A model generated the notes under the pieces. It saw only the letters and a list, made by a program, of their open reading frames with translations, ran no database searches and was not told the origin of the DNA. Shown piece after piece: positions 5,275 to 61,025 of a stretch of DNA of 64,000 nucleotides. Made by a program: the position numbers and the translations under genes. This DNA comes from an uncultured Bacteriovoracaceae bacterium (GTDB taxonomy: Bacteria > Bdellovibrionota > Bacteriovoracia > Bacteriovoracales > Bacteriovoracaceae), in NCBI GenBank assembly GCA_938017795.1, contig CALIJZ010000013.1, positions 1 to 64,000 on the forward strand, given 5' to 3'. Position 1 is the first letter of the stretch; every line of letters begins with the position of its first letter.

Positions 5275-5435
5275 ACACACTCCCCATACAAGTAATCAAC
5301 ATATTCTCTCGAGATTTTTCATATATGTAAAACATGAAAAACCGTCAAAATCATACCGTTAAATTTTAGATACTTAAAGATATCAGAAATTTTTTCCTTT
5401 TTGCATAATACTTTTCAAATTTTAAAAGGAGAAAT

Positions 5436-5609
5436 ATGAAGAAATTAAAACTTATTAACACAAAAGGTCAGGCCCTAATGGAATACGTTCTTGTTACAGG
5501 GTTAATCGGGATCTTTTGCCTATTTGCCGTTAAGAAGCTCGGAGAACAGCTTGAGAGAAAGGTAGAAGCTTCATCTAAGAGAATTAACAAATCTATAAAA
5601 ATTAAGTGA
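5436..5609 (+). CDS. flp: Flp-type pilin precursor (57 residues)
   Basis: This short gene has a good Shine-Dalgarno (AAAGGAG, 7 bases before ATG). The peptide MKKLKLINTKG|QALMEYVLV has a basic leader ending in Gly11 and then a hydrophobic stretch with Glu at +5 and Tyr at +6. That is the cleavage and assembly signature of Flp/type IVb pilins processed by a prepilin peptidase. A hydrophobic helix follows and then a short basic tail (LERKVEASSKR). It stands 31 bp before genes for a secretin and a CpaF-like ATPase, which supports a role as the pilus subunit. It is likely the first gene of the Tad operon. Confidence 0.8.
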   Translation: MKKLKLINTKGQALMEYVLVTGLIGIFCLFAVKKLGEQLERKVEASSKRINKSIKIK

Positions 5610-5640
5610 ATGAGATAAAAACAATCTCTAAGGTAAGACG

Positions 5641-6021
5641 ATGAAAGTAAAATTATTAAAATTTTTACCACTAATGGCGTTTTCAGCAGGCCTACTGCTA
5701 TCTGAAGTTTACCCTAAAAATCCCCCAGAGGTTGCTAAGTCTCATCAACCAATCTTAAAGATTAAGGCCTTGATAAAAACGAATCCATCTTCAACTAAGC
5801 TAATAGGAGTATATAACCCAAGCTTTACCAAGAAACTATTAACAGGCTACTTAATTAGCTCTGCCCCAATAGATCATTCAGAAATGGAGGTGGCTTCTAT
5901 TATAGCGACCTCCCCTGTTTCGGGTTCTCTACTTTCAAGTAATACAACCTTAATCATCTCCCCATTAATTTTAGATAAAGATCTAAAAAAAAATCGAGTC
6001 AATTATGAAATTAATTATTAG
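5641..6021 (+). CDS. Small exported protein of the Tad cluster, function unknown
   Basis: This 126-residue protein has an N-terminal hydrophobic segment (about residues 7-21) after a basic start, so it is exported or membrane-anchored. AAGGTAAG stands 5 bases upstream of the ATG. By position, between the pilin and the secretin, it could be a reduced CpaB/RcpC-like assembly protein, but I see no clear SAF-domain motif and it is about half the usual CpaB length. Its end overlaps the next gene by 17 bp in another frame. Confidence 0.55.
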   Translation: MKVKLLKFLPLMAFSAGLLLSEVYPKNPPEVAKSHQPILKIKALIKTNPSSTKLIGVYNPSFTKKLLTGYLISSAPIDHSEMEVASIIATSPVSGSLLSSNTTLIISPLILDKDLKKNRVNYEINY

Positions 6022-6277
6022 TCTAATGAGCCTTTCACTATACTGCGCTCCTGTTCTCATTAAATACGATAATTTTAAAAATGCTATGGAGGTAAAGAAA
6101 ATACTTAAAATTCATTTTAATTTTCCTGAGAGTTTCATTCAATTTAAAAAAGAAAAATGCTCTAAAGAATTAGGACAAAATAGGATTTTAGAGATTTGTA
6201 TAAAAAAGGAAATAGAAATTCTAGCAAATAGGAAAATGCTTAATGAAAATTATAAAATCTTTAGGGAATTAAAATGA
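6005..6277 (+). CDS. Small exported protein, function unknown
   Basis: This is a 90-residue protein with a plausible signal peptide (MKLIISLMSLSLYCAPV) and a lysine-rich remainder with two cysteines. No family is recognised. Overlap with both neighbours (17 bp before, ATGA 4 bp after) places it firmly in the pilus operon and makes translational coupling likely. It might be a pilotin-like or periplasmic accessory factor for the secretin; that is a guess from position only. Confidence 0.5.
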   Translation: MKLIISLMSLSLYCAPVLIKYDNFKNAMEVKKILKIHFNFPESFIQFKKEKCSKELGQNRILEICIKKEIEILANRKMLNENYKIFRELK

Positions 6278-7698
6278 ATTACTTAGATTGCTTATCAAGA
6301 TGGATAGGAAACTTAGGTGTAGTCCCTTTATTTCTATTAGCAGCCTTTCTTCTAGTACCCATTTTTGATTTTTTATTTTTTCTGATCGCTTTAAGTTGTT
6401 TTGTATTTGATGCCATAAATCTACCCTCAATATTTAGATTCATTAAGATCACTTATCTTACGTGCTTTGTCAAAATGGTATTTATGTTTCCAGCTCTCTG
6501 CTTAGCGTCAAATACTCGTCTTATCTCAAAAGGCGAGCAGATACAGATGAGTGCTCTCAAACTTCAAAGTTACTCATTAGGAAATCATCAGATTTTAACA
6601 ACCAAAATCATGAAACGAAAGAAAATGCTCTATTTGAAAGGAAAATCTATTGGTTATACTGATTTGATCATTTGGAGAAATAACGGAAAAAAAGAGCACT
6701 TTCATATTTATGTTCTCTCAAAAAGAGAAGGACTTAAATTAGCTCAAATTGCCAAATCTTTTGAAGCAATAAATTTAAAAATTTCATTTAAAGGGAAGTT
6801 ATTGGAAATTTCTGGTGAACTTCAGGATTCACAACAATTTAGAGATTATCTAAAATTAAAGAAAAAATATAATGATTTTTTAATAGATCGAACTAGCAAG
6901 AATAAGCATCTAAGTTTTAAAATAATTGAATCTATCTATAAAACAATGATGCTCTACAAAGTTGAAGATTATAAATGCTATCATGAAACAGAACTCAGAT
7001 GCTCGTATAAGTCTTTTGAAAAGAATATTGCTTTAGAAAAAAACATATTAGAACAAACTGGACTTAAAGTTCAGTATTATTTAAAAGATCAATTTCTAAA
7101 AAATCATATCCTTAACTTAAAGTTAATCGAAATTGAAAGGAGTGATGGTCAGGAGTTCTCTCTAGGTCTTCAAGAGCTCTCTTCTTCAGTGGGCAAGATC
7201 TTATCACGCGGACCAATTGATCTCATTTCACGTAACTCAATAAAGATAGCTAATCATAAATACCAGCTAAGCACGATTGCTCAACCATCAATTAGTCTAG
7301 CAATTAATTCAAAAGGAAAACTACGACTAGGTAGCTCTACCCCTTTCACTACTTCTTCAAGCGAACATATTTCTACAACAAATTGGAAGGATACTGGTTT
7401 TTCTATGGACTATATAGTTAAGCCTTCTCAAGAAAAATTAGTTCTTGAATATAAAATTGATCTCACTCACTTTCAAAGTAAAGATATTCAAGGAGGAGCC
7501 TACCAAGGTAGTCACTTCTTAAGGATGGATGTTGGATTCAAACCTCTCTTTAATATAGCTATGTACTCTGAGGGGAAAAAAAAGCAAAGACTCCCATTAT
7601 TGGGAAAGATTCCTGTTTTAGGGTTGATTTTCCAAAGTAACCAAAACCATCAAACTTATAAATCCATCATGGCTTTTTATACCTTCAGGAGTAATTAA
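6274..7698 (+). CDS. cpaC: CpaC/RcpA-like pilus secretin with N-terminal hydrophobic extension
   Basis: The 474-residue protein has a pilus-secretin N-domain (about residues 80-150, with KSIGYTDLIIWRN matching the usual gxtdlllw motif). Its secretin C-domain ends in IPVLGLIF, the hallmark of the secretin barrel. The secretin would form the outer-membrane channel for the Flp pilus. The first 75 residues are odd: two strongly hydrophobic stretches (about 14-45 and 60-76) where a simple signal peptide is expected. The ATGA overlap with the previous gene supports the long start. An internal start at Met69 would give a more ordinary exported protein. Confidence 0.8.
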   Translation: MNYLDCLSRWIGNLGVVPLFLLAAFLLVPIFDFLFFLIALSCFVFDAINLPSIFRFIKITYLTCFVKMVFMFPALCLASNTRLISKGEQIQMSALKLQSYSLGNHQILTTKIMKRKKMLYLKGKSIGYTDLIIWRNNGKKEHFHIYVLSKREGLKLAQIAKSFEAINLKISFKGKLLEISGELQDSQQFRDYLKLKKKYNDFLIDRTSKNKHLSFKIIESIYKTMMLYKVEDYKCYHETELRCSYKSFEKNIALEKNILEQTGLKVQYYLKDQFLKNHILNLKLIEIERSDGQEFSLGLQELSSSVGKILSRGPIDLISRNSIKIANHKYQLSTIAQPSISLAINSKGKLRLGSSTPFTTSSSEHISTTNWKDTGFSMDYIVKPSQEKLVLEYKIDLTHFQSKDIQGGAYQGSHFLRMDVGFKPLFNIAMYSEGKKKQRLPLLGKIPVLGLIFQSNQNHQTYKSIMAFYTFRSN

Positions 7699-7701
7699 TA
7701 A

Positions 7702-8676
7702 GTGAAAGAAATTATTAAGCATATGAATTCAAGCATTAACCTTGGGATCTTGCCCAAGAAAGACACTTTACCAAAAGAGGTTTATGAGGACTGCTTTCAT
7801 TTCAAATTCTTAAGCAAACTTTTAGATAAAGATTTTGAAGAGTTAGTTATTCATCACTCTAGCTTAGTCTCTCTTAGATCTAATGAGCATAAATCTTATC
7901 ATCAATTGGATATCTCTCAAGAGATGCTAGAACTAGCTTTTGAAGTATTGAGTCTTCAAAACAAAATTACATGGAATGTGAGCTTTCCTTTTATTTCGAA
8001 AAAAATCACATTATTTGGAATTACTTATAGATTATCACTCCTACATAAATCAACCGGTTCAAAGCATCATAAATATTTTCTTCGAAAGAAAAAAAAATCA
8101 TTCTTCCCTATTGAAAGTTATAATCATAGCAATCTCTTGAGCAAACTTTTTTCAGAGAAAAAAAATATTATGTTCTCCGGCGCTAGTAGTTCGGGGAAAA
8201 CAAGTTTAATGCAATCGTTGTTAAAAGAGTCTTGCCGCGAAGAAGATGTCTTAGTGATTGAAGACACCAATGAAATATTACCAGTTCATGACCATTGGAC
8301 TTTTTTAACATCTAATAACTCTGAGCAACTAAAAAAGTATTGCTCCTATAGTGTAAGAATGTATCTAGATAGAATTATTCTTGGTGAAATTCGCTCTATT
8401 GAGATTTATCCATTTATTTTAAGTATGAACACAGGCCTAAAAGGCTTCATGTCCACTCTTCATGCAAATAATGCTCTAGATACGATGCATAGATTAGGTG
8501 TCTTATTTGAACTCTATTCAGAAACTAGCAGTTTAAAGTTTGAAACAGTTATGAAGCTTTTGTGCTCCCAAATTGATTTTGTTGTTTATATGGAAAACAA
8601 GCAAATCAAAGAAATCATAGAAGTACTAAACTACGATCAAAGAGTGATCTATAAAAATATTACATCTTCAATTTAA
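7702..8676 (+). CDS. cpaF: CpaF/TadA-type secretion ATPase
   Basis: This is a VirB11/CpaF-type hexameric ATPase of 324 residues, which powers pilus assembly at the inner membrane. Visible are Walker A GASSSGKT (160-167), an Asp box around LVIEDTNE, ILGEIR in place of Walker B, and the His box STLHANN (251-257). It is shorter than typical CpaF (400-480 residues), with a reduced N-terminal domain. The start is GTG, with AGGAG about 10 bases upstream; ATG at 7723 is an alternative. No TadB/TadC or prepilin peptidase follows, so the rest of the machine must be encoded elsewhere. Confidence 0.85.
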   Translation: MKEIIKHMNSSINLGILPKKDTLPKEVYEDCFHFKFLSKLLDKDFEELVIHHSSLVSLRSNEHKSYHQLDISQEMLELAFEVLSLQNKITWNVSFPFISKKITLFGITYRLSLLHKSTGSKHHKYFLRKKKKSFFPIESYNHSNLLSKLFSEKKNIMFSGASSSGKTSLMQSLLKESCREEDVLVIEDTNEILPVHDHWTFLTSNNSEQLKKYCSYSVRMYLDRIILGEIRSIEIYPFILSMNTGLKGFMSTLHANNALDTMHRLGVLFELYSETSSLKFETVMKLLCSQIDFVVYMENKQIKEIIEVLNYDQRVIYKNITSSI

Positions 8677-50200: not shown

Positions 50201-52546
50201 TTATTCTCTACATTTAACTGTTTTGATAATATCAGTTGTTGCTTTTCCAGAGACACTTGAACTCCCACCTTCAAAGAAATAGAAACCATTTGCTCCGTTT
50301 AAAATTTCAATTTTATAATCAAGTCCAGCTGTAATATTTTGAGCAATTATATGCTGTGGAGTTGATAAATACTTTGGTTCTGAGTCAGTACCTTTAGTCA
50401 GTGTTAATAAAACTGTATGATAAGCATCATTTAAACAGCTATCATCTAGCTTGATAATAATTTTCTTACCTGCTCCTCCATTACATTTTTGCTTTACACA
50501 AACTTTTTCTTTATCAAATGGATTAAAGCAATTTGTATCAATCGGTTTCCCGATAAGAGTCGCATAGTTTTGAATATGCATTGTCACAACAGAGTCACAA
50601 GTTTGATAAGCTCCTTCATAACAAACAAAGAAGAAACAACTATTATCTTCAATGCTCGCCTCTGCTCTATAATTAGCAGCATACGGATTAGTACAACCAC
50701 TCATATTGTGACCTTCTTTACATGTACTATTAACGATATCTTTAAGATCTTTTTTGTGAATACTTGCATATTCTACAGCGGCAATCATCTTTTCTTTATC
50801 TTCCACAGATGGATCGATACACATGTCTGCACTTTGTTCTTTATAAGTACAATCAGTACAATATGAATACTTACAAGTTCCGTTATCTTTATTTGCATTT
50901 CCAACTGTATTGTCTGCTTTAGGATCCATACACCCAACAATTTCATTATCATCTGTACAATTAGTTTTTAAAGTTACGTACTTTGCAAGATCAGAACTAG
51001 TTACCTGATCAACATTTTTCCCTAGAATTGTTGCGACATAAGCTTTTATATGAGCTGGGATTGGAGTTGTTCCATATCCAGGCTTCTTACAAATCTCCCA
51101 ACGACAACTTCCATTTTCATCTGTTGCATCTTTATTATAATTCTTTGCAGATTCTTGAGTACAACCTGGCTTATTAACACAAGTACTTTGGTTAATAAGA
51201 GCTTCTTCAGTCTTATTAAATTTACTAGCATAATTTTTTATTATCGTATGTATACTTGCTACATATCCATCATATCCACTCTTTAAACAAGCATTCCACT
51301 TACAACTACCATCGTCTCTTTGATTATCTGAACTATATCCGATTGCACCTTCAACCATACATCCACTTTTTACAACACAGATATCTTTATCAATATAAGA
51401 TTGAGCAGAGGCACTCCCATGAGCTGATGCATAAGCATTGATTTTAGCAGCTAAGTCAGCATCAAAGCCACCAAATCCACTTCTGATACATCCTTGTTCC
51501 CAACGACAAGTTCCATTGTCTTGTAGAGCACTCGGATCATATCCCTTTGCACCAATAATAGTACAACCTACTTTTTTATTAACACAAGTATTAGAAACAA
51601 TTAAATCACTCACCCCAATTGAATATTTCTGAGCGTAGCTTTGAATGATTTGTATGAGTTCAGAATTATATTCAGTATACCCAGGAGTTAAACAAGCACT
51701 CCACCTACAAGATCCATTTTCATCCACTGTATTTTTTGCATCATAATTTGATGCTCCTTCAGTCATACAACCATTATAAGGCCTAGGAGTTGAACAAGTA
51801 TTTTCCACTAAACTATCAAGACTTAGCCCATGCTCTCCTGAATATTTAATCGCTGCTTCAATAATAGTTTTATTATTATCAGCATCAAATTCTACATACT
51901 CACTCATTCGACAAGCTTTATATTTACAAGATCCATCTTCATAACCTGCCAAAGGATCTGTATTATAGGCATTAGAATCCATGCACCCCGGTAAGACTTT
52001 TTTATGCTCACAATAAGTTTCATCATGCTCCACTACAACTCCATAAAGAGATTGCAGGATTAAATAATCTTGATATTCGCAATATCCTTCAAGACCGCAA
52101 CCTTTATACTTACAACTCTCTTGTGTTTGATAATTATAAGCTCTCGGGTCATTACATGTGTTACCATCTTCATCTTTTTTATTTTTACATAAGCTCGCAT
52201 CGTTAATGATCGTTCCACCATGTTGATCAATATATACTTGAAATACTACTCTTTTTTCAAACTCAGAATAACTCGCATCATCACATGCTTTGAATATACA
52301 AGCACCAGGTTCAGTCCACTGACTCGCATCAAAGTTTTCACCTTCATGATGTTGACATAACTCTTGTGGACTAACTGGAATCACTCCGCCACCTGGAGGA
52401 GGTAAAACTGGACCACTTGGTGGTGGATCAACATTTGTAGTGTTTGTAGAGGATCCTCCTAAACTACTTGAAGCTGGATCAAATAGATTAGCATTCCCAC
52501 AACTAAGTAGAAATAGAATCACTGACAATTGAATTATACTTTTCAC
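50201..52546 (-). CDS. Cys-rich tandem-repeat lipoprotein A
   Basis: The 781-residue protein starts at GTG 52546 with GGAG six bases upstream. The lipoprotein signal ends in LLSC (Cys16), followed by GNANLFDP and a Ser/Thr/Pro/Gly spacer. About nine repeat units follow (residues 64-684). A full unit has the form GC...A.NY...A...(D/N)GSC(K/R)W..C, then a helical part with Y(A/V)..H/G and a closing (N/S)TC: four cysteines per unit, probably two disulfides. The last 97 residues form a different, beta-rich domain not found in the two relatives. A sigma-28-type promoter precedes it. It is likely an outer-surface protein; function unknown. The repeat is read directly; surface location and adhesion or Ca2+ binding are inference. 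Confidence 0.9.
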   Translation of the reverse strand: MKSIIQLSVILFLLSCGNANLFDPASSSLGGSSTNTTNVDPPPSGPVLPPPGGGVIPVSPQELCQHHEGENFDASQWTEPGACIFKACDDASYSEFEKRVVFQVYIDQHGGTIINDASLCKNKKDEDGNTCNDPRAYNYQTQESCKYKGCGLEGYCEYQDYLILQSLYGVVVEHDETYCEHKKVLPGCMDSNAYNTDPLAGYEDGSCKYKACRMSEYVEFDADNNKTIIEAAIKYSGEHGLSLDSLVENTCSTPRPYNGCMTEGASNYDAKNTVDENGSCRWSACLTPGYTEYNSELIQIIQSYAQKYSIGVSDLIVSNTCVNKKVGCTIIGAKGYDPSALQDNGTCRWEQGCIRSGFGGFDADLAAKINAYASAHGSASAQSYIDKDICVVKSGCMVEGAIGYSSDNQRDDGSCKWNACLKSGYDGYVASIHTIIKNYASKFNKTEEALINQSTCVNKPGCTQESAKNYNKDATDENGSCRWEICKKPGYGTTPIPAHIKAYVATILGKNVDQVTSSDLAKYVTLKTNCTDDNEIVGCMDPKADNTVGNANKDNGTCKYSYCTDCTYKEQSADMCIDPSVEDKEKMIAAVEYASIHKKDLKDIVNSTCKEGHNMSGCTNPYAANYRAEASIEDNSCFFFVCYEGAYQTCDSVVTMHIQNYATLIGKPIDTNCFNPFDKEKVCVKQKCNGGAGKKIIIKLDDSCLNDAYHTVLLTLTKGTDSEPKYLSTPQHIIAQNITAGLDYKIEILNGANGFYFFEGGSSSVSGKATTDIIKTVKCRE
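50495..52357 (-). repeat. Tandem array, about 9 four-Cys units (lipoprotein A)
   Basis: Units of roughly 200-230 bp encode 65-79 residues each. The first two units (nearest the N-terminus) are the divergent capping forms also found in B and C. Sequence between units differs more than in B, suggesting older duplication. Boundaries are approximate. Confidence 0.8.
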
Positions 52547-52573: not shown

Positions 52574-52600
52574 TTATCGGATAAATGTAGAGATACTTTA
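52574..52600 (-). promoter_or_regulatory. Sigma-28 (FliA)-type promoter of lipoprotein A
   Basis: On the minus strand TAAAG (52600-52596) and TCCGATAA (52581-52574) match TAAA-N15-GCCGATAA with the exact 15-base spacing and one mismatch in the -10. The predicted start, near 52566, leaves about 20 bases including the ribosome site. Confidence 0.7.
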
Positions 52601-52621
52601 GAAAATAGCTTAAAGATTATA

Positions 52622-52652
52622 GGGAAGAAAAAAGGGCCCAAGAAGGCCCTTT
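52622..52652 (-). terminator. Intrinsic terminator of lipoprotein B
   Basis: On the minus strand AAAGGGCC (52652-52645) pairs with GGCCCTTT (52638-52631) across a six-base loop and continues into a T run. It closes the transcript of gene B and insulates gene A. Confidence 0.85.
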
Positions 52653-52666
52653 AATATTTTTTATTT

Positions 52667-55081
52667 TTACCAATCAGAGTCTACACATTGATATCTATTG
52701 ACTCCTCTACAGGTATTTGTTCTCACCGACTGACCTAGGTTGTGCCTTTGAGAGTAAGCTCTAATAATACTCTCAGTTGCTGTACCTACATAGCCAGTTT
52801 TACACTTATTTAAACAAGCATTCCATCGACAACTTCCATTATCAATATCCGGCATTGGACTAGTTGTATTTCTAGCACTTGCTTCTTTACAACCTTGAGT
52901 GAAAACCTGACAAGTGTTTGTGTTAATATAGTCAGACTTTACTCCACCGTGGTTACTAATATATGTATTAATAATACTTAATAATTGTGCGTCTGGGTTC
53001 TTAACTCCGCTTGACTCTGGACATCCATTCCAACGACAAGATCCATCATCTACTTGAGCTCCAGCTGTAGGGTTATTTGCCCTTGGAGCCATACAACCTT
53101 TTTCTTTACATAAATCATTATGGATATAGTTTTGAGCTGTACCACCAAAGGTTTTAGCGTAATTATTAAGAAACCTTAATAATGTCTGGCTATGACCCAC
53201 TGAAACATCTCCATTGATACAACCATTCCATTTACAACTTCCATTTTCAACTTCTGCATTTGGGTTATAACCAACTGAAGCATTTGAATGTGTGCATCCT
53301 TTTAACTTACAAGTATCTTCACCAATATAACTTTGAAGACTTCCATTGTGAGTACTAGCATAAGTTGAAATTAAAGCTAATAATTGAGGATTATGAATTG
53401 CATAGTTTTCACCTTTAATACAACCTCTCCACTTACAACTTCCTTTATCAACCTGAGCTGCAGGGTTATGATTAAGTGCTCCAGGAATCATACATCCTAT
53501 TAACTTACAATTATTTGCTTCAGGGTTAATATAATCTTGAGGGTTACCTCCATGTACTGAAGCATATTGAGTAATTAAACTTAAAATTAGTGAATCATGT
53601 CCTTCATACATTGCACCTTTAATACATTCATCCCATTGGCATGAACCATTATCCACTTGGGCTGCTGAATTATAATTATTTGCTTTTCTCTGCATACAAC
53701 CTTCTACTGGTTTAACAGTACAAGTATTTGATGCAATATAACTTGCAGGTGTTCCACCATGAGTAGTTATATACGTTTGAATAATTGCTAATAATTCTGC
53801 AGAATATCCATTTTTATCAGATTCAATACAACCATTCCATTTACAACTTCCATCGTCTTTATTTGCATTAGAATCATAACCAATAGCACCTTGAACTCTA
53901 CATCCAAGAACTTCTTTAACTGTACAAGTATTATTTCGAATTAAACTTTCTCTGGATACTTGATGCATACTTGCGTAGGCTGTAACCGTTTCTAAAAGCC
54001 CTTGTGAAAATCCTTCTTTACCTATCTCAATACAACCGTCCCACTTACAACTTCCATCACCTTGAGTAGCTGCTGAGTTATGATTAACTGCAGTCTCAAT
54101 AACACAACCAAGCACAGGCTTTTCAGTACAAGTATTCGTTTCAATATAAGTACTCAAATCAGTCCCACCATTAGCTGCAGCATAAGCAGTAATAGTTGCT
54201 AATAAGTCAGCAGAGAATTCATCACTGTATTCATCAAGACAACCATTCCATTTACAACTTCCATTTTCTTTATCAGCACTTGCATTATAACCAATAGCAC
54301 CTTCAACCTTACAGCCTAAAACTTCTTGATAAGCACAAGTATTCATTGCAACAAGATCGTCAATATTTAAGTTATGAGTTGCTGCATAAGTAGTTAAAGC
54401 TTCTAGTAAAGCTTGATTTTCAGTTGTTCCATAATCATCGGATCTTGAATCAGTACATAATTTATACTTACAAGTCATATCATCAAGAGTCGCCGTTTCA
54501 TCATAATTTAATGCTAATGAATCAGTACAACCTTTATAAACGTAAGGAGTTTTACACTCTAATGGATCAGCACTAACAGCATCTCCAAAAAGTTTTTTTA
54601 AACTTAAATAAACTTCATGCTCATAAAAACCTTCAGTTGGACAAGCTTTGAATACACATTTTTCTGCTGATCCATTATTAGATGCTAAAGGGTGAGTACA
54701 ATCATCTTTATACCCATCAATCTTAGTCACACATAAATCATTATTAGGAGTAATATTTCCTCCATTTCTTTCAATATATTCTAAAAAGATATTTGCTAAC
54801 TGAAACTCTGCATATTCAGAGTTAGGGCATGCTTCAAATTCACAAGGACCAATTTGCTTCCAAGAAGAAGCATCATAATCTAGAGCTGCAGGATGATGGC
54901 AAGCCACTTCATCAGGGATCTGAGGTGTTCCAGGTTCTTCTCCACCTGATGGAGGTGATAAAGGTGTAGTTGTTCCAGTAGTTGAGCCCCCTGAAGCGAC
55001 ATCAGCGCTCGGGTCAAATAGGTTCGCATTATTACAACTCACCAGAAATACAATTGTAATTACAATTTTTAATACACTCAT
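52667..55081 (-). CDS. Cys-rich tandem-repeat lipoprotein B
   Basis: The ATG at 55081 is preceded by GGAGGAAG, which favours it over a TTG 12 bases upstream; the protein has 804 residues. The lipoprotein signal ends in LVSC (Cys16), then NNANLFDP and a Gly/Thr/Pro spacer. About eleven units follow from residue 61 to the C-terminus, with no separate end domain. Full units show C-x18-C-x4-C-x36-C spacing, for example GCKVEGAIGY...ENGSCKWNGC...YIETNTC. Acidic/Asn loops (DDGSC, DNGSC) could bind Ca2+. Internal units are more alike than in A, so the array may have expanded recently. Own sigma-28-type promoter and strong terminator. Function unknown; likely a surface filament or adhesin. Confidence 0.9.
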   Translation of the reverse strand: MSVLKIVITIVFLVSCNNANLFDPSADVASGGSTTGTTTPLSPPSGGEEPGTPQIPDEVACHHPAALDYDASSWKQIGPCEFEACPNSEYAEFQLANIFLEYIERNGGNITPNNDLCVTKIDGYKDDCTHPLASNNGSAEKCVFKACPTEGFYEHEVYLSLKKLFGDAVSADPLECKTPYVYKGCTDSLALNYDETATLDDMTCKYKLCTDSRSDDYGTTENQALLEALTTYAATHNLNIDDLVAMNTCAYQEVLGCKVEGAIGYNASADKENGSCKWNGCLDEYSDEFSADLLATITAYAAANGGTDLSTYIETNTCTEKPVLGCVIETAVNHNSAATQGDGSCKWDGCIEIGKEGFSQGLLETVTAYASMHQVSRESLIRNNTCTVKEVLGCRVQGAIGYDSNANKDDGSCKWNGCIESDKNGYSAELLAIIQTYITTHGGTPASYIASNTCTVKPVEGCMQRKANNYNSAAQVDNGSCQWDECIKGAMYEGHDSLILSLITQYASVHGGNPQDYINPEANNCKLIGCMIPGALNHNPAAQVDKGSCKWRGCIKGENYAIHNPQLLALISTYASTHNGSLQSYIGEDTCKLKGCTHSNASVGYNPNAEVENGSCKWNGCINGDVSVGHSQTLLRFLNNYAKTFGGTAQNYIHNDLCKEKGCMAPRANNPTAGAQVDDGSCRWNGCPESSGVKNPDAQLLSIINTYISNHGGVKSDYINTNTCQVFTQGCKEASARNTTSPMPDIDNGSCRWNACLNKCKTGYVGTATESIIRAYSQRHNLGQSVRTNTCRGVNRYQCVDSDW
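52670..54901 (-). repeat. Tandem array, about 11 four-Cys units (lipoprotein B)
   Basis: Units of about 200 bp. Similar DNA words such as CCATTCCATTTACAACTTCC recur at about 53224, 53830 and 54244 on the plus strand, showing nucleotide-level similarity that could allow unit gain or loss by recombination. Boundaries are approximate. Confidence 0.8.
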
Positions 55082-55130
55082 TTCTTCCTCCAAAAAATTA
55101 AATCTTTCCTTAAAATCATTTTACTATGAT

Positions 55131-55158
55131 ATATCGGTCTTTCTTGAGGAAAACTTTA
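55131..55158 (-). promoter_or_regulatory. Sigma-28 (FliA)-type promoter of lipoprotein B
   Basis: On the minus strand TAAAGTTT (55158-55151) is a perfect -35; ACCGATAT (55138-55131) follows after 12 bases, one more than the usual 11. The predicted start is near 55123, about 42 bases before the ATG. Confidence 0.65.
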
Positions 55159-55337
55159 GTTCTTATATATTTCAATCACTTAGAAGTACAAGTTCAGATA
55201 TTTATGCAAACTTTTTGAGTCTGCTAAACTCATACTCAAATTAACTGACCATTTTAAGAGGGGAAATTCTTATCTACTCTAAAATCTCATATTTTGGCAT
55301 GATAAAATTTAGTGAACTTTCTAATTAAGGAATATAT

Positions 55338-55550
55338 ATGAAACACTCAGTATTAATATTAATGATCCTAGCAATTTCATCTTGTATGAAAGCACCAGTT
55401 CAAACTCAAAAAGTATCAAAGGCCAAGCCTGTGACTAAGAAGGTCATTGAGCACAAGCATACCAGAGGTATTTCAAGTGTTAATATGAATTTATCTTTGG
55501 AAGATGAGATAGATTTTCAAGCAAAACAATTAGAGAGCTCTTTAGAATAA
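55338..55550 (+). CDS. Small lipoprotein
   Basis: The 70-residue protein has a lipoprotein signal ending in ISSC (Cys16), then a lysine-rich stretch (about 25-42) and an acidic C-terminal helix. No family recognised. AAGGAA stands upstream of the ATG. It is transcribed against the repeat lipoproteins and ends at a shared bidirectional terminator. Confidence 0.6.
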   Translation: MKHSVLILMILAISSCMKAPVQTQKVSKAKPVTKKVIEHKHTRGISSVNMNLSLEDEIDFQAKQLESSLE

Positions 55551-55553
55551 AAA

Positions 55554-55579
55554 AAGGAGTACTTTTTCAAATACTCCTT
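55554..55579. terminator. Bidirectional intrinsic terminator
   Basis: AAGGAGTA (55554-55561) pairs with TACTCCTT (55572-55579) around a 10-base T-rich loop. A-rich sequence on one side and T-rich on the other give a terminator in both directions, between the small lipoprotein and lipoprotein C. Confidence 0.7.
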
Positions 55580-55597
55580 CTTTCATATAAAATTTAA

Positions 55598-56551
55598 TTA
55601 CGGTGTATGTGTTTTACACGTTTTAGTTAAAATATCATCAACAGTTAATCCATGAGCTGCTGCATAATCTATAACAAGTGGGTTTAGTTCTGGAGTGTAT
55701 TCATTCCAGTATTCATCTAAACATCCAGTAAATGTACAGCTTCCATTCTCAACTTTAGCTGCTGGATTATAATTATCTGCACCAACAGTCGTACAACCCA
55801 CATTCAAAGTCTGACAATTAGATCCACAAGTTACAACCTCAATAGTGTTACTTGCACACTGAGGATTTCCATTAACATAACCATTAACGACAGTATTGTA
55901 CTGGTCATACTCAATATACCTGTCATCAGTACAAGATTTAAATCGACAACTACAATCTTCTACCACTGCAGTTGCATCATAATTTTCTGCACTTGGGTTT
56001 GTACACCCAGCTTTTACTAAGTCTCCACAAGCTAATGGATCAGTATCAACTTCAACATTTTCAACTCCATAAAGTTGAACTAAAATTTGATAGTGAGCAT
56101 AACCTAATTTACCTGGTTGATTACATCCTTTGTAATAACATTTTTCAGCTTTACCAACATTATAAGCGTTAGCATCGTTACACTCGCCATTGTAAGCATT
56201 CTTTTTTGTGAGACAAAGTGCATCGTTATCTAGAATAACCTTACCTCCATATTGTGCATTATATGCATCATAGACTCTCTTCTGATCACTTTCTGCATAA
56301 TCGGAATCTCCACAAGCTGTAAAGTCACAAGCTCCAGGAGCTGCAACATAATTGTCTGTGCCATAACCATTACCATCAGCGTGTTGACAGTATGGTTTCG
56401 GAGCCACTGCATACTCACAAGTATTAGCCGGAGCTATGGTGGTCGTTGGTTCTGGTGGTATATATCCAGCCGCAGCAGGATCATACAAATTTGCATTGTT
56501 CGTGCACCCTATTAAGGTCACTAAAGTTACTATCAAGTAAGTTAATTTCAT
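55598..56551 (-). CDS. Cys-rich tandem-repeat lipoprotein C (short form)
   Basis: The 317-residue member of the same family as A and B has AGGAGGA before the ATG. The lipoprotein signal ends in LIGC (Cys16), followed by NNANLYDP and a Pro/Thr spacer. The two N-terminal capping units correspond closely to those of A and B (for example SDYAES... and ...AEKCYYKGC). Then come only two further units, the last complete and followed by the stop, so the array is about four units long. The third unit has extra cysteines (CSC, CGSNC). It has the best sigma-28-type promoter of the three. Function unknown. Confidence 0.88.
   Translation of the reverse strand: MKLTYLIVTLVTLIGCTNNANLYDPAAAGYIPPEPTTTIAPANTCEYAVAPKPYCQHADGNGYGTDNYVAAPGACDFTACGDSDYAESDQKRVYDAYNAQYGGKVILDNDALCLTKKNAYNGECNDANAYNVGKAEKCYYKGCNQPGKLGYAHYQILVQLYGVENVEVDTDPLACGDLVKAGCTNPSAENYDATAVVEDCSCRFKSCTDDRYIEYDQYNTVVNGYVNGNPQCASNTIEVVTCGSNCQTLNVGCTTVGADNYNPAAKVENGSCTFTGCLDEYWNEYTPELNPLVIDYAAAHGLTVDDILTKTCKTHTP
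55601..56392 (-). repeat. Tandem array, about 4 four-Cys units (lipoprotein C)
   Basis: Two capping units and two standard units, about 200 bp each. The order cap1-cap2-standard is the same as in A and B, so the proteins differ mainly in the number of standard units. Confidence 0.75.
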
Positions 56552-56595
56552 TTTTCCTCCTAACGTACTACTAGAGTATTATTATACCTGAGTAT

Positions 56596-56622
56596 TTATC
56601 GGTAGGGTCATGAAAAACTTTA
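56596..56622 (-). promoter_or_regulatory. Sigma-28 (FliA)-type promoter of lipoprotein C
   Basis: On the minus strand TAAAGTTT (56622-56615), exactly 11 bases, then ACCGATAA (56603-56596): the full consensus except the first G of the -10. The predicted start is near 56588, about 37 bases before the ATG. Confidence 0.78.
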
Positions 56623-56726: not shown

Positions 56727-58772
56727 TTACTTTTCATTACAATTTGCATCTGAACCGGTATTTCTAAAGTCACAATCTTCCGTAGGGGGAATTGGATCTA
56801 CAGGAACTCTATTAACAACTTTTCTCAGTATATCATCTCGGCAAGAATACTCATATTCAGATAATTGCATATTATCTTCTTTCCAATCTTTAGCACTTCC
56901 ACCAGATTTTCTTTCGTAAGCATTTAATAAGTGAGAAATTCTAGTCGCCGCTAAAGGACCAGCATCACATCTAGATTTCCCATAACTCTTCATTTTTTCT
57001 TTTTGATTCCAAGAAACGGTACACATAAAGGCAATGTCGCCTCTTGAGCTTGTAGCTTCATATAAACAATTCTTTTCTTTCATTAAAGAGATTGCCTTTT
57101 TTACTAAAAACTTAACATAAAGAATTGTTGCAGATACAGCTAAAGCACTCACCATCTCAGGTCCTAACAAACTCTTAAATGCTTCCTTAGGGCTTTTAAG
57201 AATGCTAAGTCCTAGTTTTTTAGCGTCTAAAGGTGAAAAAGTTGTAAAGTGTTTTTGAATAACGGAGTCAAGTAATTGCTTACCAGAATAATTTAAAACA
57301 TTTACACCAAACTTCTTAGGATCTAAGTCAAAAGAAACATGAAGAATACTTGATACAATTTTAGGATCAACCTTAAATACATTTTTGAAGATATTACTAA
57401 CCATTTCAGCATGAACGATTTTTTGAACAGCATACTTAAAGGCTGCTTCTTTTGTTCTTTCCAACAAAGCATCTTTACTGACATCAAAGTTATTTTCTGC
57501 GAAGAACTTATATACATCATTATCATACAGACCTGAGATTCCTTCTTTTACTTTATCACTTTTTAATGAATTATAGATGACGCTAGCTAGATATTTTGCT
57601 CCATGTGGAAACAACTCTTTAACAAATGATTTAGGGTCTGACTTTAAGGCCGCATTAATTAAACCGCCAAGTTCAGCAGAGATCTTCTTTTTCTCTACTA
57701 ACTTCTCAAGGGCAAGACTTGAAGCAGAACTAAGAAAAGCTTTCGGATCTGTTGAAAAAGAATCACCAAGAACATCTGCAATCATCTCATTACTGATCAC
57801 CTTTGGTATAAGAAAATTAAATCCAGATTCTAACAACAAAGAATCAACTTCAATTTTTTGATTTAAAAAATCTTTTGAAATAACATTAAATACAGCTTCA
57901 ACTGCATCGCTATCGACTTCTTTAGACAACAGCCCCAAAGAGTTATCCATTAAAGCTCTGGCAAACTCTTTTTGATCAGTTCGATAAGCTTCATCGAAGA
58001 TTTCAGAAAGTAACGAATTCCCTAATAAGGTGGATAATGTAAAATCGATACCATTTTGAACGAAGACTTCTGTCGGATTTTGTTTTTTCTCTTTTTCATC
58101 CTTGAAGTATTTATCAATTATAAGTCTTAAATCTCCATTAGAAGGCATGTTCTGAAGGTTTAATGCACCAGCAAAAACGTTGTCATGCTTTGCTCCTTCT
58201 TCCATAAAAGCTCTTAAGTTTTCAGTATAATTCTGAATAAAAGCTGAAGGATTTAGATCAAAAGATTTCCTTGCAATTTCTATTAAGTTTTCATCTATCT
58301 CAACTCTTTTTTCAAACCCACTTAACAAAGCGTTAAAGCCAGCCTCTGAAGCAATATTAATAATTTTAGATTTATTTTTAGTTATTTTATTTTTAAACAA
58401 TCGAGAAATAATTCCTGTCTTAGAAGTATTTCTTAACTGTGATAAATATTGAGGGCTACTAATTGTTTTCTTTAAAATTTCATGCAAGCTATTTTTTGTT
58501 TTCTGATCATTAAGATCATAAAGACCAAGAAAGTATTCATTCTCCGCCAAAAGATCATTAAATTCTTCAAATCCAAGATTAAATGGATCTTTTACATTCA
58601 AAACAAGACCATCATCTCCAATTAAAAAACTCTTACACCCACATTCATTTGAATTAAATAAGTTTGCATTTTTTTCTTCCTCACTAAGAGAAATACTTTT
58701 ATCCATTTCTTTAGATTTACAAGCTGTAATAGAAATTAGAACAATAAGAATACGTACAAATAGTTTTTTCAT
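56727..58772 (-). CDS. Large helical-repeat lipoprotein D
   Basis: The 681-residue protein has a lipoprotein signal ending in ITAC (Cys18). KNANLFNS (35-42) recalls the NANLFDP header of A-C, but is about 15 residues further from the lipid Cys. Residues about 150-530 are helical with a recurring motif of the kind DPKAF, DPKSF, DPKKF, NPSAF or DQKEF, each followed by a helix (near 174, 266, 342, 379, 469 and 484). That suggests a repeat solenoid. A hydrophobic helix (about 537-560) and a Cys-containing C-terminus follow. No sigma-28-type promoter is seen. No family recognised. Confidence 0.75.
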   Translation of the reverse strand: MKKLFVRILIVLISITACKSKEMDKSISLSEEEKNANLFNSNECGCKSFLIGDDGLVLNVKDPFNLGFEEFNDLLAENEYFLGLYDLNDQKTKNSLHEILKKTISSPQYLSQLRNTSKTGIISRLFKNKITKNKSKIINIASEAGFNALLSGFEKRVEIDENLIEIARKSFDLNPSAFIQNYTENLRAFMEEGAKHDNVFAGALNLQNMPSNGDLRLIIDKYFKDEKEKKQNPTEVFVQNGIDFTLSTLLGNSLLSEIFDEAYRTDQKEFARALMDNSLGLLSKEVDSDAVEAVFNVISKDFLNQKIEVDSLLLESGFNFLIPKVISNEMIADVLGDSFSTDPKAFLSSASSLALEKLVEKKKISAELGGLINAALKSDPKSFVKELFPHGAKYLASVIYNSLKSDKVKEGISGLYDNDVYKFFAENNFDVSKDALLERTKEAAFKYAVQKIVHAEMVSNIFKNVFKVDPKIVSSILHVSFDLDPKKFGVNVLNYSGKQLLDSVIQKHFTTFSPLDAKKLGLSILKSPKEAFKSLLGPEMVSALAVSATILYVKFLVKKAISLMKEKNCLYEATSSRGDIAFMCTVSWNQKEKMKSYGKSRCDAGPLAATRISHLLNAYERKSGGSAKDWKEDNMQLSEYEYSCRDDILRKVVNRVPVDPIPPTEDCDFRNTGSDANCNEK

Positions 58773-60546: not shown

Positions 60547-61025
60547 GTTTTAGACTCCTCAAGTTCAACCAAAAGCTGATCAGCGCTGACTTGATCACCA
60601 ACGCTACCTTTTAAAGTCTTGATTGTTCCATCCAAACTAGCTTTTAGAGAATGTTCCATTTTCATGGCCTCTAAAATCAAAACTGTTTCACCTTTACTAA
60701 CCTTATCCCCGATATTTTTTAAAACTTTAAAAATCTTTCCAGGCATAGGAGAAATAATAACATTAGAACTTGCAGCACTTAACTCGCTATGGCTTCCTTC
60801 GCCTAGCTTAACAGAGTAAACATTGCCTCCGAGACTGATTAAATATTGAGAGTTTTTAGAATTATAACAATAATAAACACTCAAGTTTTTACCATTTTTT
60901 GAAACAATTAATTCATGATCACTCTTTCGAACTAATTTATAAACATCTTCACCAATTAGTATTTCTTCGTTTTTCTTACTAAAACTCTCGGGACTAAAAA
61001 CTTCTTTATTAATAAATATATCCAT
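60543..61025 (-). CDS. Biotin carboxyl carrier part of methylcrotonyl-CoA carboxylase alpha
   Basis: With the ATG at 61025, whose A is the last base of the upstream stop (TAATG), the product has 160 residues. The first 80 correspond to the BT linker domain, and the last 75 are a biotinyl domain with EAMKMEH (biotinylated Lys). In most bacteria this region is fused to the biotin carboxylase; 489 plus 160 residues equals the size of a fused MccA. The clean TAATG junction argues for a true gene split rather than a sequencing error. Confidence 0.88.
   Translation of the reverse strand: MDIFINKEVFSPESFSKKNEEILIGEDVYKLVRKSDHELIVSKNGKNLSVYYCYNSKNSQYLISLGGNVYSVKLGEGSHSELSAASSNVIISPMPGKIFKVLKNIGDKVSKGETVLILEAMKMEHSLKASLDGTIKTLKGSVGDQVSADQLLVELEESKT

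Follow-up and report, generated by a model that had tools for sequence, protein, structure and literature searches.

A sigma-28 circuit that appears to have outlived the flagellum as a switch for cell-surface lipoprotein genes in a genus of Bacteriovoracaceae

Three paralogous genes for repeat lipoproteins, here called A, B and C, lie close together in a 64,000-nucleotide stretch of DNA from an uncultured Bacteriovoracaceae bacterium (contig CALIJZ010000013.1, here C13; the whole stretch is referred to as the window), and each is preceded by a near-consensus promoter site for sigma-28 (FliA). We propose, with a probability of roughly 0.78, that in this genus FliA and FlgM persisted after the flagellum was lost and now act as the switch for a regulon of the cell surface, and that the sites before A, B and C are working sigma-28 promoters. 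The sequence evidence set out below suggests that a switch once used for swimming has been turned to the control of cell-surface proteins. The window belongs to an assembly of 2.86 Mb that is 94.8% complete (G000), and the comparison within the genus covers four genomes of uncultured Bacteriovoracaceae (G000 to G003; completeness 88-99%, two of them 98-99%). The FliA of G000 shares 98, 85 and 82% identity with its counterparts in CALHLC01, JAHDBN01 and JAHDHG01, which are Bacteriovoracaceae metagenome assemblies of the same genus.

The sites were searched for with the strict pattern TAAAG-N14-16-CCGATA, with the reversed pattern as a control. Within the window the strict pattern matches three times, solely at the A, B and C sites (Table 1), while a first-order Markov null gave a mean of 0.05 matches and a maximum of 1 in 300 trials. 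The boxes agree with TAAAGTTT-N11(12)-GCCGATAA at 15/16 positions for C and at 14/16 for both B and A, and stand 27-49 nucleotides (nt) from the start codon. The initial annotation had placed sigma-28 boxes upstream of all three genes on the minus strand, and re-reading of the sequence reproduced these exactly. Its further statement that the window holds no other intergenic match of like quality agrees with a graded score, in which the three sites rank first to third (25, 24 and 24) and the runner-up (22, at position 60703) lacks the CCGAT core. In the whole of G000 there are 17 strict matches and a single match to the reversed control; 3 of the 17 fall within this 4 kb.

Comparison with a sister species (G002) indicates that the boxes have been conserved selectively. 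The G002 orthologues of B and C keep strict sites, that of C reading TAAAGTTT-N11-GCCGATAA, and the orthologue of A has TAAAGTAA-N11-GTCGATAA at the same distance from the start as in G000. Summed over the three promoters (the sum is ours), 43 of 48 box positions are the same in the two species, compared with 15 of 33 spacer positions; the proportion of differing synonymous sites (pS) between them is 0.66. The reading of the A, B and C sites as sigma-28 promoters is well supported by these sequence comparisons. A different account would have the housekeeping sigma factor drive the genes mainly from other promoters, the likeness to sigma-28 sites being incidental. The AT-rich leader of gene C does hold a TATAAT downstream of the sigma-28 site, kept in G002; a comparable shared sigma-70 element was not noticed at A and B, where no systematic scan was made, and the occurrence of three independent near-consensus sites in one gene family, against 0.05 expected per window, makes this account quite improbable. 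The gene C leader (56551-56600, minus strand; TATAATAATACTCTAGTAGTACGTTAGGAGGAAAAATG) is identical in G002, above the conservation of its surroundings; it may act as an RNA element or as an operator.

Strict sites are in excess across the genus and enriched in the repeat-lipoprotein family. The four genomes contain 63 strict sites, compared with 11 for the reversed control. Nine of the 27 family genes of the genus, representing about six paralogue groups, have a strict site before them, which gives a p of about 3e-14 against some 54 sites among the remaining ~10,300 genes (a number estimated from genome sizes); this value overstates independence because orthologues count separately. That the sites are chance matches in an AT-rich genome might be argued from a looser, genome-wide search, in which matches with two mismatches were near background (37 compared with 26 for the reversed control) and were set aside. 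This possibility is already contradicted by the excess of strict matches, the family enrichment and the conservation in G002, and we regard it as scarcely credible. Among the paralogues are giant members of ~1900-2300 amino acids (aa) at loci L158, L160 and L166 (G000:C92, G002:C50 and G003:C31). The last of these loci carries a strict site; L158 and L160 carry CCGATAT 43-44 nt from the start with a weaker -35 box, and a further paralogue, L162, has a -10 box at 70 nt, likewise with a weaker -35. A genome of another genus that retains rod/hook genes (G043) has homologues of the repeat lipoproteins at loci L170 and L171, two of them with CCGATAA at 21 and 52 nt and weak -35 boxes.

The wider set of candidate targets was drawn from the strict-pattern searches and the stretches of sequence around the matches. 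In the four genus genomes the strict sites lie mainly just before genes of lipoproteins and other exported proteins. The sequence around 59 distinct sites was read, and 34 of these sites precede the first start codon of an open reading frame (ORF) of at least 60 aa by no more than 50 nt, compared with 4.3% of random positions. Orthologous targets recur in the genus, namely a cytochrome c lipoprotein, a second lipoprotein family and a 177-aa exported protein. A sigma-28 site is also conserved in three members of the genus upstream of the gene for a PilZ-GAF-sigma54-activator protein (L016 in G000:C64, L185 and L131), a predicted target that may link FliA to cyclic di-GMP and to sigma-54. The gene for an RHS-repeat protein carries a site both in G001, a member of the genus, and in a flagellated relative (G005); some of the non-flagellar regulon is therefore probably older than the loss of the flagellum. 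As a positive control, a strict-type site precedes motA in the flagellated G013.

No flagellin N-domain (PF00669) was found in G000, and neither FlhA (PF00771) nor the rod/hook domain Flg_bb_rod (PF00460) was found in any of the four genus genomes. In the same FlhA search 41 of 59 genomes scored, most with E ~1e-270, and typical flagellated relatives have 6-7 rod/hook matches each. Gene order points to how the loss came about (gene names at these loci are our reading of the sequences, except where confirmed by Pfam or TIGRFAM). The flagellated G005 has the order fliL-M-N-O-P-R-flhB-flhA-flhF-flhG-fliA; the corresponding loci of G000 (L174) and G003 (L217) hold just a 169-aa ORF, flhF and fliA, after which comes a homologue of the large protein that follows in G005. 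At a second locus G005 has flgI-flgJ-flgM-flgN-flgK-flgL-csrA-fliW followed by a tetratricopeptide repeat (TPR) gene; in G000 (L304) and G003 (L307) the locus consists of flgM-csrA-fliW, with the same TPR gene after it. Judged from these gene orders, the flagellar genes are cleanly deleted around the retained regulators. The wider sample of relatives contains nine genomes at least 90% complete that lack FlhA, and FliA exceeds its cut-off in eight of them. The ninth (G029) has six rod/hook matches, and because these remain, its assembly is probably just short of the fliA-flhA stretch. In four of the eight that keep FliA (G072, G080, G082 and G087) the flagellum has likely been lost, FlhA being the one marker searched.

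These results bear directly on the interpretation offered by the initial annotation, that cells produce the lipoproteins while swimming freely in the attack phase, together with flagellin and under FliA. Its appeal to Bdellovibrio bacteriovorus is sound, as TTAAG-N16-CCGATA was reported in 92 of 140 attack-phase promoters of that species, most of which FliA controls (PMC3627812), and fliA is essential there, deletion being unobtainable even in host-independent strains (PMC5430801). Against a swimming phase in the present genus stand the missing flagellin, FlhA and rod/hook genes and the deletion of whole flagellar blocks in otherwise syntenic loci, and we consider it very unlikely. The sigma-28 promoters of that interpretation are upheld by the sites themselves, by boxes that are conserved where spacers are not, and by a FliA that is intact and under purifying selection; the free-swimming phase is not.

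The regulators are still present. In all four genus genomes FliA scores above the curated cut-off of TIGR02479; that of G000 (274.7 bits, cut-off 189.6) is full length, with regions 2, 3 and 4 identified by Pfam, and is the single full-length FliA in the genome. Between G000 and G002 the ratio of nonsynonymous to synonymous divergence (dN/dS, by the NG86 method) is ~0.013 at a dS of ~1.6, where synonymous sites are nearly saturated. FliA is under functional constraint and purifying selection. FlgM likewise exceeds the PF04316 cut-off in all four genomes (34.0 bits in G000, cut-off 25). The genus FlgMs are 77-81 aa long and keep the C-terminal, sigma-28-binding half, and all four lack ~22 N-terminal residues that include the (R)xxFFPN-type motif of seven FlgMs from flagellated Bacteriovoracaceae. 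We take the lost segment, from general knowledge of FlgM export, to be the flagellar export signal; it is replaced by a segment that is conserved across the genus. CsrA and FliW were confirmed adjoining FlgM in G000 (C58, L304:4718-5571), and csrA and fliW are also present at L307. Flagellin is the usual ligand of FliW. Since flagellin is absent while csrA and fliW are kept, FliW would either have no role left or bind a different ligand.

The products of A, B and C share a cysteine-rich repeat module of about 68 aa with four cysteines. The repeats gave no Pfam family over its cut-off and no sequence or fold match in the PDB, and one of five fold models of the module was good. The lipobox, the repeats and the expansion of paralogues suggest a surface or adhesin role for these lipoproteins. 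Gene A is probably its own transcription unit, because a likely terminator of gene B sits just upstream of the A promoter. Just upstream of C lies the gene for a 681-aa lipoprotein (56727-58772, minus strand) without a strict sigma-28 site; the start of this protein slightly resembles that of a second site-bearing lipoprotein family (NCxCxx...LFITD; L009, L157, L194 and L202).

Table 1. Promoters, genes and terminator at the repeat-lipoprotein locus, in window coordinates. Promoter and terminator entries are predictions from sequence.
Feature	Position	Strand	Description and basis
Gene A sigma-28 promoter	52574..52600	-	TAAAGTAT-N11-TCCGATAA, 27 nt before GTG 52546
Gene B sigma-28 promoter	55131..55158	-	TAAAGTTT-N12-ACCGATAT, 49 nt before ATG 55081
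Gene C sigma-28 promoter	56596..56622	-	TAAAGTTT-N11-ACCGATAA, 44 nt before ATG 56551
Gene A	50201..52546	-	781-aa lipoprotein with lipobox LLSC and ~68-aa Cys-rich GC...DGSC repeats; ORF list, repeats
Gene B	52667..55081	-	804-aa repeat lipoprotein, nine GC...DGSC repeats; ORF list, repeats, G002 orthologue
Gene C	55598..56551	-	317-aa repeat lipoprotein; ORF list, G002 orthologue 63% identical
Gene B likely intrinsic terminator	52624..52653	-	AAAGGGCC-N6-GGCCCTTT and T run; read directly from sequence

Several points weigh against the retention of a working surface regulon. All four genus genomes are apparently of metagenome origin; about 18 of the 27 family genes have no strict site; some strict sites lie within genes or distant from any start; lipobox genes are only modestly enriched among the targets (17/52 compared with 22/171, p=0.003, with a crude signal classifier); and the genus FlgM could be a non-binding remnant. 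The family paralogues that lack strict sites also speak for a vestigial circuit, in which one or two other targets would account for the survival of FliA, the boxes before A, B and C being ancestral leftovers of little present use. Leftover boxes would have had to survive between G000 and G002 while their spacers and the synonymous sites were scrambled, and paralogues bear sites at like distances from the start; we judge this account unlikely.

Under the reading we favour, with FliA and FlgM as the switch of a surface regulon, the genus has dropped the flagellum and kept the late-flagellar circuit, comprising FliA and FlgM, together with CsrA and FliW where these were examined. The single full-length FliA would bind and read the A, B and C sites, each driving one paralogous surface lipoprotein, and would serve a non-flagellar regulon whose members are lipoproteins and other exported proteins. 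Transcription of A, B and C, and of the other genes with a site, would depend on FliA and begin once FlgM is removed. Because both the flagellar exporter and the N-terminal segment of FlgM are missing, this removal would most simply occur by proteolysis, the route also proposed for Legionella oakridgensis (Tlapak 2017, as reviewed in PMC5655016). The regulon may be active in an attack-like dispersal state or on contact with prey, in cells that do not swim. We tentatively extend this to a joint reading that we think somewhat less likely to hold than to fail: the flagellar checkpoint may have been rebuilt as a switch for prey or surface contact, in which FlgM with its new N-terminus gates FliA through a new release, by regulated proteolysis or by way of a new partner, CsrA-FliW answers a new FliW ligand, and the output is a coat of paralogous cysteine-rich lipoproteins. 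FliA would then be indispensable in the phylum independently of the flagellum, and indeed it is present in each of the eight near-complete genomes that have neither FlhA nor another flagellar signal in these searches.

In a flagellated predator the flagellar role of FliA cannot be separated from its role in the attack phase. A genus without a flagellum that keeps FliA and an FlgM lacking the N-terminal segment is a natural experiment that separates the two; it exposes the non-flagellar FliA regulon directly, and raises the question of how FlgM is removed without an exporter. One close parallel is the FliA regulon of Bdellovibrio, which belongs to the same phylum, has the same kind of -10/-35 consensus and extends beyond flagella to surface and uncharacterised genes; work on that organism led to the view that FliA, at first a regulator of flagella, became the attack-phase master. 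Bdellovibrio is flagellated, however, with FliA still driving flagellin, whereas the present genus has no flagellum and its predicted targets include paralogous cysteine-rich repeat lipoproteins. The Bdellovibrio Tad operon is moreover under FliA control (PMC5430801), unlike a small Flp/Tad-like cluster in the window (5435-8676, plus strand; a Flp-pilin-like ORF, a CpaB-like ORF, a PF00263 secretin and a PF00437 T2SSE ATPase), upstream of which no sigma-28 site was found (best graded score 18, compared with 24-25 at A to C). Flagellated members of the same family (G005 and G013) share the motif before many exported-protein genes and motA, as well as orthologous fliA and flgM loci, but have a full flagellar gene set and an FlgM with the N-terminal FFPN segment.

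In a survey across bacteria, 41% of non-motile genomes had FliA hits (PMC12199754). The non-flagellated L. oakridgensis likewise kept FliA and FlgM when its entire flagellar regulon was lost, with relief from FlgM that does not involve export (PMC5655016); it belongs to another phylum, and the present genus differs in also keeping csrA-fliW and flhF (at the loci examined), in the loss of the FlgM N-terminus and in a predicted regulon of surface and exported proteins. Sigma-28 of Chlamydia trachomatis similarly serves late developmental, non-flagellar genes in a non-swimming bacterium (PMC12282069, PMC10597470), although there in the life cycle of an intracellular pathogen and with unrelated targets. 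Sigma-28 that outlives the flagellum is of a known kind; what is unusual here is the predicted surface regulon and the shortened FlgM.

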